Origin: Gigantopelta aegis
Lineage: Eukaryota; Mollusca; Gastropoda; Neomphalida; Peltospiridae
Direction: 5' to 3'
DNA: 64,000 nucleotides
Assembly (NCBI RefSeq): GCF_016097555.1
Contig: NC_054707.1
Coordinates: forward strand, 45,406,892 to 45,470,891
This document shows positions 3,201-6,200 of this stretch, in pieces (the stretch's first letter is position 1; each line of letters starts with the position of its first letter). The translations under genes were made by a program, and so were the position numbers. The notes beneath the pieces were generated by a model, which had not been told where the DNA came from, searched no databases, and saw only the letters and a list, made by a program, of their open reading frames with translations.

Positions 3201-6200
3201 CACCTTCTAGTTAGCTGTCAAATGCACACAATTAGACTGTTTGTTTTGCAAGCTAAGTACAAATGTGAGTTAAAATAACAGCCCACATAATATTTATGTG
3301 ATCATACTGTACTTATGATCTACAACTTGACACTTTTGTCTCACCTTGGTGTAGTCAGAAGGCAACATATAAGTATTACTATTCTGACGCAGGCCTCCCA
3401 GCCACTTGTACATATTAAAATACAGGAAATATAGGAATTTGCATATCAAAATATAGGAGTTTTATAGGAATTTTTAGGTCAAATATAGGAGTTTTATAGA
3501 AAAATTTGGACCGATTATCATGATTATAGGCATTTTACACAGATTTATAAAGACATTTACATGACTAATGGTATGTTCTTACCTTGCATATGTACACAAG
3601 ATACCAGCTACTACCACAAAAAATATATACCAAGGCTTGCCAGCAGTCCATGCCAATATCCAGGATACTTTGAAGTTGGTGCATCTTGTATCAGTAATAC
3701 ATCCTCCTCACCTCATCAGGTGAGCAGGATCTTGATTGGCACTTGATACAGATCTCCCACATTCAAAGCATCTTCTGAATTTCTGACAGGCTGGCTGCCT
3801 TTCACTGTGAATATAACTCAGAAACATATTTTATTCTTCAGCATTTTGGCAAAGCAATTAAGTCAAATATAGGAAGTATAGGAAATGAATCTCAATTATA
3901 GGAGTTTTATAGGATCCTATAATATAAAAAAAGGAAATATAGGAAAAATAGGAGGTCTGGGAGGCCTGTGACGGTGACATCAGTTTCTATTGATTCTGTC
4001 ATGCCAGTTGAAGAGCATTCACGAATGTACATCTCATGTTTTCGTGAAAGTTCTAATAAACTCAAAACTGAGTGAACTCAAATTCAAGATTCTCAGCATT
4101 GGGACATTAAAAAGCACTGACCTGCATTGTACTAGCATTGGATCCATGACTTTGTAACAAAGTAACTGATCATTTCATTGACTACAACAATAATCAAACC
4201 TTAAAACTGGTTCATGCCACTGATCCAACTGTGCAAGGCGTGTATGATATTTCTGGTCCAGCAGTAAAAATTCCTCTAAAATCTTCAGCTTTAATTCTTG
4301 GTTAGGACATTCGAGATCAAATGCTTCTTCAGGAATTCCATCTTGAAATTGTGGCCTCCTTTCCAAAGCTGGTGGACAAATGCTACGCAGTTCATCTAAA
4401 TAAAAAGGACAGTTAAGGCAAAAGAGCAATTGCAGTTCATTTAAATAAACAGAAGTACAGTTCAGTTAAAACACAACCACAATTCATCTAGATAAATAGG
4501 ACAGTTCAGTTAAAATTAAAATGCAATCACAGTTCATCTAAATAAACAGAAGGACAATTAAGTTAAAGCAATAACAATACATTTAAATAAACAGGACAGT
4601 TAAGTTAAAAAGCAATTTCAGTTCATATAAATAAACAGGAGAGGGACGTTAATATGTAAGCGCAGTTCATCTTGAGTAAACACAGAGAGCTGGAGCAGAA
4701 GCAATATTACTCACTAACCAACTCACCTGATTTGAGCTCACTCTCCAGGGATAAGTGAGTAAACACAGAGAGCTGGAGCAGAAGCAGTATTACTCACTAA
4801 CCAACTCACCTGATTTGAGCTCACTCTCCAAGGACAAGTGAGTAAACAGAGAGCTGGAGCAGAAGCAATACTACTCACAAACCAACTCACCTGATTTGAG
4901 CTCACTCTCCAGGGATAAGTGAGTAAACACAGAGAGCTGGAGCAGAAGCAGTATTACTCACTAACCAACTCATCTGGTTTGAGCTCACTCTCCAGGGATA
5001 AGTGAGTAAACACAGAGAGCTGGAGCAGAAGCAATACTACTCACTAACCAACTCACCTGATTTGAGCTCACTCTCCAGGGATAAGTGAGTAAACAGAGAG
5101 CTGGAGCAGAGCAGAAGCAATATTACTCACTAACCAACTCACCTGATTTGAGCTCACTCTCCAGGGATAAGTGAGTAAACACAGAGAGCTGGAGCAGAAG
5201 CAATATTACTCACTAATCAACTCACCTGATTTGAGATCACTCTCCAGGAATAAGTGAGTAAACATAATGAGTTGGAACAGAAAGAATATTACTCACTAAC
5301 CAACTCACCTGATTTGATCTCACTCTCCAGGGAGAAATGAGTAAACACAGAGAACTGGAGCAGAAGCAATATTACTCACTAACCAACTCACCTGATTTGA
5401 GCTCACTCTCCAGGGAGAAATGAGTAAACACAGAGAGCTGGAGCACAAGCAGTATTACTCACTAACCAACTCATCTGATTTGAGCTCACTCTCCAGGGAT
5501 AAGTGAGTAAACACAGAGAGCTGGAGCAGAAGCAATATTACTCAATAACCAACTCACATGATTTGAGCCCACTCTCCAAGGACAAGTGAGTAAACAGAGA
5601 GCTGGAACAGAAGCAATATTACTCACTAATCAACTCACCTGATTTGAGCTCACACTCCAAGGACCTCTGTTCCAGATTTAACTTGTCTACTATGTCAGCT
5701 TGCTGCTGTTTCACATTGTCTATGGTGCACATGATTTCTTGATGTTTCTGCAACACGGAAGGCACCCCTAGGGCCAGATCGTCCTTATTCTCAGACATCC
5801 AGTATGTCAAGTCCTCCCTGAAATTATAATTTGTCATGATGCAGGGGTGGAAACAATGTGTAGATGTCCAGTGACTAAAGGGTATACTAAGTTCAGTAAG
5901 TGCCAATGTACCCGATATTAATAAAGTAAATAATGTCACATTAACAATTTAAAATTCCTGAAACATTACATACAATTGTGTGGTTTGATATGTTGCATAC
6001 ATTATATGAATATCTTACATGTATCTCTGCGGATGAGAGGCAATTTATATTTATATAATGAAAAGGAAAGAGATTTTTGTTTAACACCTCAGCACATTCT
6101 AAGGTTACATTATTGACAAAAGAGAGAGAGAGAGAGAGAGAGAGAGAGAGAGAGAGAGAGAGAGAGAGAGAGAGAGAGAGAGAGAGAGAGAGAGAGAGAG

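Follow-up and report, generated by a model that had tools for sequence, protein, structure and literature searches.

Tandem copies of both splice boundaries make up one intron in a probable mollusc

An intron of a gene drafted in the window, that is, in the whole 64,000-nt stretch of DNA that was analysed, is composed of two adjoining tandem arrays, one carrying copies of its donor boundary and the other copies of its acceptor boundary. We consider it very probable that tandem duplication affected both splice boundaries of this intron, in the manner of the amphioxus 'mirages', and that the inner copies are tolerated. This extends the boundary-minisatellite structure of amphioxus to a probable mollusc, to both intron ends and to an intron that is filled by it, and raises the question of how splicing would choose the outermost among a dozen near-identical donors.

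The arrayed intron (5638-4396, minus strand) is 1243 nt long and of phase 1. Joined together, the eight drafted exons give a frame of 476 aa that is open throughout, which backs the exon joins. Pfam and PDB sequence searches of the drafted protein returned no match, a scan of the genome contigs with part of it found no relative, and the name CCDC148 is a putative one, given by an earlier, sequence-only reading of this DNA. When both ends of seven introns were examined for local copies (14 tests), only at the two ends of the arrayed intron was the observed score reached by none of 200 shuffles. At the 12 remaining ends, those of the gene's other six introns, 12 to 189 of 200 shuffles reached the score and copies were undetected.

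Table 1. Drafted exons, boundary arrays and pseudo-exons, in window positions
Feature	Position	Strand	Description
Coding exon 1 (drafted)	8173..8227	-	open-frame draft
Coding exon 2 (drafted)	6527..6911	-	open-frame draft
Exon upstream of arrayed intron	5639..5817	-	true donor 5638; copied exon end = last ~25 nt, 5663-5639
Donor-side array	4673..5663	-	81/83/86-bp units, exon-end copy + GTGAGT-type donor; true donor + 11 copies
Eleven pseudo-exons	4727..5601	-	between CTCCAG-like acceptors and copied donors
Junction of arrays	4671..4726	-	56-nt donor-to-AG stretch GTGAGT...TTTACTCAAG, then ATGAACTGCG
Acceptor-side array	4386..4670	-	44-50-bp units, TTTATTTAG-type acceptor + ATGAACTG(CG)-type exon start; true one + six extra
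Exon downstream of arrayed intron	4200..4395	-	true acceptor ends 4396
Coding exon 5 (drafted)	2776..2923	-	open-frame draft
Coding exon 6 (drafted)	1974..2180	-	open-frame draft
Coding exon 7 (drafted)	1131..1271	-	open-frame draft
Coding exon 8 (drafted)	215..333	-	open-frame draft; gene may run past window edge

Each unit of the donor-side array repeats the last ~25 nt of the exon followed by the donor. TRF called 4673-5663 as 12.0 copies of an 83-bp period with 90% match, and a 24-mer spanning the junction (exon end plus donor, at most 3 mismatches) occurs at 12 places in the 64 kb, all within 4719-5654, versus none in 100 shuffles. The sequence-only reading had described such an array in the intron, with about 11 copies of exon end and donor, and is borne out on both points, 11 copies being counted besides the true donor. 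Its statement that nine of them keep the donor is correct for the GT, retained in 9/11 copies and replaced by AT in the two others (5474 and 4973), but the complete CAG/GTGAGT is present in only 8/11, one GT copy reading CAT and not CAG. A perfect CAGGTRAGT is found nine times on the window's minus strand, always in the donor array (true donor plus eight copies). Pairwise identity among the 11 units averages 90% (range 81-99%), with one unit aligning poorly, and the computed U1 pairing of 8/11 donor copies equals the -12.2 kcal/mol of the true donor.

The acceptor-side array was missed in the sequence-only reading; its intronic part spans 4670-4396. Its units copy roughly 10 nt from the start of the downstream exon, and AG is retained in 3/6 extra copies. 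The 17-mer TTTATTTAGATGAACTG, with at most 3 mismatches, has six matches in the window (true site included), all in the acceptor array, against 0.82 expected, and none of 100 shuffles reached six. Copying of the exon past its first 10 nt is not significant in these units (106-500 of 500 shuffles). Since this array is more diverged, with a mean column identity of 69%, its sequence suggests that it is probably older than the donor array.

The two arrays adjoin each other: the last, truncated donor unit passes into AAG/ATGAACTGCG, and ATGAACTGCG at this junction matches the opening 10 nt of the following exon exactly. The intron is thus made up entirely of copies of its own donor and acceptor ends. 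The 56-nt stretch 4726-4671 could possibly be a relic of a short ancestral intron, though the corresponding tests were negative. Shuffle tests did not support the idea that a single 56-nt intron gave rise to both arrays. Among six comparisons of the 19-nt acceptor end, one was reached by 90/2000 shuffles and the others by 376-1506 of 2000, and the observed sum for the 36-nt end was reached by 201/5000 shuffles, or by 982 and 923 of 5000 when a part was kept constant. Furthermore, the 36-nt end score was equalled or beaten by 2/6 other real acceptors of the gene and by 25/198 pyrimidine-rich AG sites. A dispersed element was also rejected as the source of the array, on the grounds of a single match of the donor array in the 1,149,253,464-base assembly (in a search that skips very common words) and of only short matches elsewhere in the window, with E 0.45 or worse. 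An Rfam search at gathering scores gave no match.

The sequence-only reading had presented every unit as a complete 46-nt pseudo-exon whose inclusion would truncate the protein by a TGA. This holds in part: the pseudo-exons measure 46 nt in 8/11 cases and 44 nt in 3/11, and 8/11 of them retain an intact AG as well as an intact GT. All eight 46-nt pieces meet the TGA in the exon's phase, but the three 44-nt pieces are without it, though each shifts the frame and leads to a stop 49 codons on. Single inclusion was computed for 11/11 pseudo-exons and any of them leads to a stop. Each of the 11 inner donors, when used to extend the exon, gives a stop 6 codons beyond the native end; the three inner acceptors tried likewise lead to a stop (3/3). 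Of three pseudo-exon combinations tried, 1+2 keeps the frame open, number 2 being without GT, but the other two do not. The true exon, too, contains this TGA, outside its reading frame (TGTGAG), which indicates that the pseudo-exons obtained it by copying and not by selection.

Changes from the unit consensus amount to 3/99 in the donor motif, 3/66 in the acceptor motif and 29/742 in the rest of the unit, so within the array no excess conservation of splice-signal bases was detected, at low power (Fisher p=1.0 for the donor, 0.74 for the acceptor). On the other hand, leaky use of the inner splice copies is plausible according to these computations, since both signals survive in 8/11 pseudo-exons, and in 7 of these 8 the computed U1 pairing of the donor equals that of the true one. 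RNA structure hiding the decoy donors was considered and rejected, as predicted accessibility fails to separate the true donor from its copies, 4/11 of which rank above it. The predicted folding of three donor units was better than 200/200 shuffles (z -4.91), and that of four single units had z values of -0.7 to -2.3.

A segment of ~83 bp, comprising the exon end, donor and intron start, was probably multiplied by slippage or unequal exchange, and a segment of ~45 bp, comprising the intron end, acceptor and exon start, likewise, probably earlier. An ordinary tandem duplication happening to span a boundary would most likely be tolerated because the outermost site still yields correct mRNA, and the array could expand afterwards. 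In splicing, the outermost sites, donor 5638 and acceptor 4396, are most likely still paired, a combination that preserves the frame, and the inner copies would be tolerated decoys with low-level use at most. If introns were short initially, a duplication of 40-140 bp would often take in a boundary, so that a boundary excess would arise without targeting. The two arrays with their content, the frame, the single genome match and the similar arrays in other genes are observed; the order of events, the neutral tolerance and the use of outermost sites we infer.

The sequence-only reading had left a choice between splicing noise tolerated by the gene and a poison-exon cassette array. The former fits the data, given that no signal constraint was detected, the acceptor array and the boundary arrays elsewhere. 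A poison cassette, in which including array pseudo-exons would route transcripts into decay and control the level of the gene, could draw on the eight pseudo-exons with intact AG and GT, the in-frame TGA in the eight 46-nt pieces and the frameshift in the three 44-nt ones. We nevertheless regard it as very unlikely and without positive support: its TGA comes from the exon itself and is missing in 3/11, its splice signals show no constraint (donor 3/99 vs rest 29/742, at low power), and a donor-side cassette does not predict an acceptor-side array and leaves it unexplained. Moreover, neighbouring pseudo-exons are separated by 37-nt spacers, and 37 nt is very short for an intron.

Slightly less probable still is redundant or multi-step splicing, in which inner donors and acceptors would serve stepwise or as spares. 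The eight donor copies with U1 pairing equal to that of the true donor would suit such a role, for which the human IFI6 minisatellite with its extra donors offers a precedent (PMC4526556, available text). However, each inner donor used as an extension brings a stop 6 codons on, and the process would be silent only by two-step removal. Long tandem arrays are often mis-sized in assemblies. An array, or a copy number, made or mis-sized by the assembly would also have a parallel in a mirage that was aberrantly assembled in a draft genome (PMC3087553, available text). Yet the donor units differ mutually (81-99% identity), the two arrays are unequal in divergence and the same pattern is found at other loci; such an artefact thus appears the least likely of these explanations.

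Tandem duplication of both boundaries, the reading we prefer, can be compared with several known systems, here taken from the accessible portions of the sources cited. Mirages are minisatellites at the donor and acceptor boundaries of the amphioxus globin genes BflGb6 and BflGb9 (PMC3087553), the first cases being those of Adh3 (Canestro 2002, cited in PMC3087553). Their alleles differ in length (6 and 3 units), Adh3 data together with RT-PCR suggest that they leave regular splicing undisturbed, and intron gain from mirages has been proposed (PMC3087553). Units are of minisatellite size in both systems; those of our donor array, of 81-86 bp, share 81-99% identity, compared to 81-100% in the BflGb6 mirage (PMC3087553), whereas the acceptor array (44-50 bp) lies below this range. 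The mirages named in the accessible portion of PMC3087553 have cephalochordate hosts, whereas the host here is probably a mollusc. As in mirages, the units span the exon-intron boundary, here on donor and acceptor sides, and many but not all of them keep AG/GT (here GT in 9/11, AG in 3/6 extra acceptor copies). Unlike in mirages, both ends of one intron are arrayed here, the arrays together filling the intron.

The minisatellite of human IFI6 (6-16/G1P3) was reportedly described by Turri in 1995 as having multiple donor sites. Such multiple donors also appear in the accessible text of PMC4526556, where two downstream repeat units are reported to be used for isoforms. There as here, tandem repeats give one exon repeated donors, but the inner donors of our array would lead to a truncated protein. 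In human segmental duplications, internal tandem repeats located at exon-intron boundaries have been tied to novel introns (PMC2812944, in part); these are likewise minisatellites at exon-intron boundaries, but they alter paralogues and splicing patterns, whereas here an existing intron was enlarged and the frame needs the outermost sites. Intron gain through duplicated AG/GT sites (Rogers 1989, cited in PMC3087553) similarly involves copying of splice signals, but what is seen here is the growth of one intron, with no new intron shown. The first intron of earthworm metallothionein also contains minisatellites (PMC12783039), an intronic array in an invertebrate gene, the accessible text leaving splice boundaries in its repeats unmentioned. 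PMC6171432, PMC3862624 and PMC12783039 contain no boundary arrays in their accessible portions, and a literature search, with most subscription papers outside its reach, gave no report of such arrays in molluscs among the papers listed.

Similar arrays are present in other genes of the same genome. A triple-donor pattern near the spacing of the donor array gave 1909 matches versus 388 for the reversed pattern; these are counts of matches, not of arrays, and the matches listed fall in six arrays (L035-L040). Two of the six fetched arrays, L040 and L036, lie at coding-like exon boundaries, at both exon ends. The exon of L040 has an amine-oxidase match (E 2.3e-10), and that of L036 is open over 58 codons, with no Pfam match. 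L038 carries TACAG/GTAAGT-like units next to a possible exon, the exon copy being absent, L037 and L039 are, by eye, inside SINE-like sequence, and L035 gave no sign of coding.

Protein kinase genes were sampled from the 136 places in the genome matched by the PF00069 profile. The sample of 20 loci comprises those 11 of 30 retrieved loci that are on C1-C14 with fewer than 240 profile positions covered, and 9 more; it leaves out 33/51 stop-free partial PF00069 matches and includes L052 and L061, whose matches hold stops. Kinase counts also leave out the small contigs C627, C666, C776, C1387 and C1018, each with 2-3 kinase matches, some having in-frame stops; these kinase-rich contigs are possibly from contaminant organisms. 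Boundary arrays were found at 4/20 loci. At L059 the exon end ..HIRIGDF is followed by GTAAGT, with 37-bp units (TRF, 14.2 copies), and at L061 the exon end ..GVICYV is again followed by GTAAGT, with 137-bp units (TRF, 10.0 copies). L079 has boundary arrays at both exon ends, and L078 only a weak one on the acceptor side, which TRF does not call. Local copies are present at 5/29 internal kinase exon edges examined, which provides a first rough rate of boundary copies.

When flank windows were counted, no excess at edges was visible (5/29 edges vs 37/240 flank windows and 0/20 mid-coding). This is partly because boundary arrays fill the flanks too: 29/37 positive flank windows sit in the four positive loci, and the rest give 8/192. 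We also counted arrays beside the 29 internal edges (TRF period at least 20, score at least 80). Of these, 4/9 cross the edge, versus 0.40 expected from random founding-unit placement (P=3.3e-4), in an exploratory test that was picked after the loci had been seen and with edges defined as the ends of HMM hits. Recounts gave 3/6 without L052 and L061 (P=7e-4), 3/8 with L079 taken once (P=0.004) and 4/13 with TRF-uncalled flank repeats at four loci taken as misses (P=0.002). The strictest recount, with all three changes together, gave 2/9 (P=0.054), which lowers the case for a boundary preference. It is therefore a tentative and rather doubtful proposition that splice boundaries attract tandem duplication in this genome and that such duplication is a main route of intron growth, short introns lengthening from their own ends to become partly or wholly donor and acceptor arrays. 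Should the preference hold, intron lengthening or gain by splice-site duplication would become testable within one species.

Several minor observations were made along the way. The PF14830 haemocyanin beta-sandwich domain, which we take to be restricted to molluscs, was found at 5 places in the genome, only on the small contigs C2783 and C5121, and in 0/14 controls, which points to a mollusc and not amphioxus as the probable host. Within the window, a dispersed SINE-like family is represented at 7650-7960 and by 22 further BLAST pieces (77-100% identical), and a tandem repeat of 106-bp unit lies at 37644-37972; both presumably resemble mollusc SINEs. A short-chain dehydrogenase gene starts at 55240-55641 on the minus strand (PF00106, E 9.9e-9). 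At 1395-1446, on the plus strand, a 17-bp repeat (x3.1) contains a perfect CAG/GTAAGT donor-like motif twice; it is intronic, and the gene lies on the other strand. In L038, ~12 irregular TACAG/GTAAGT-like units (by eye, minus strand, 3215 onward) resemble a run of zero-length exons, as in recursive splicing. Upstream of the amine-oxidase exon of L040 (~2520-2819), each unit comprises an acceptor and an exon-start copy followed by a GATG/GTAAGT donor-like site, thus resembling a mini-exon of ~32 nt with both splice sites.
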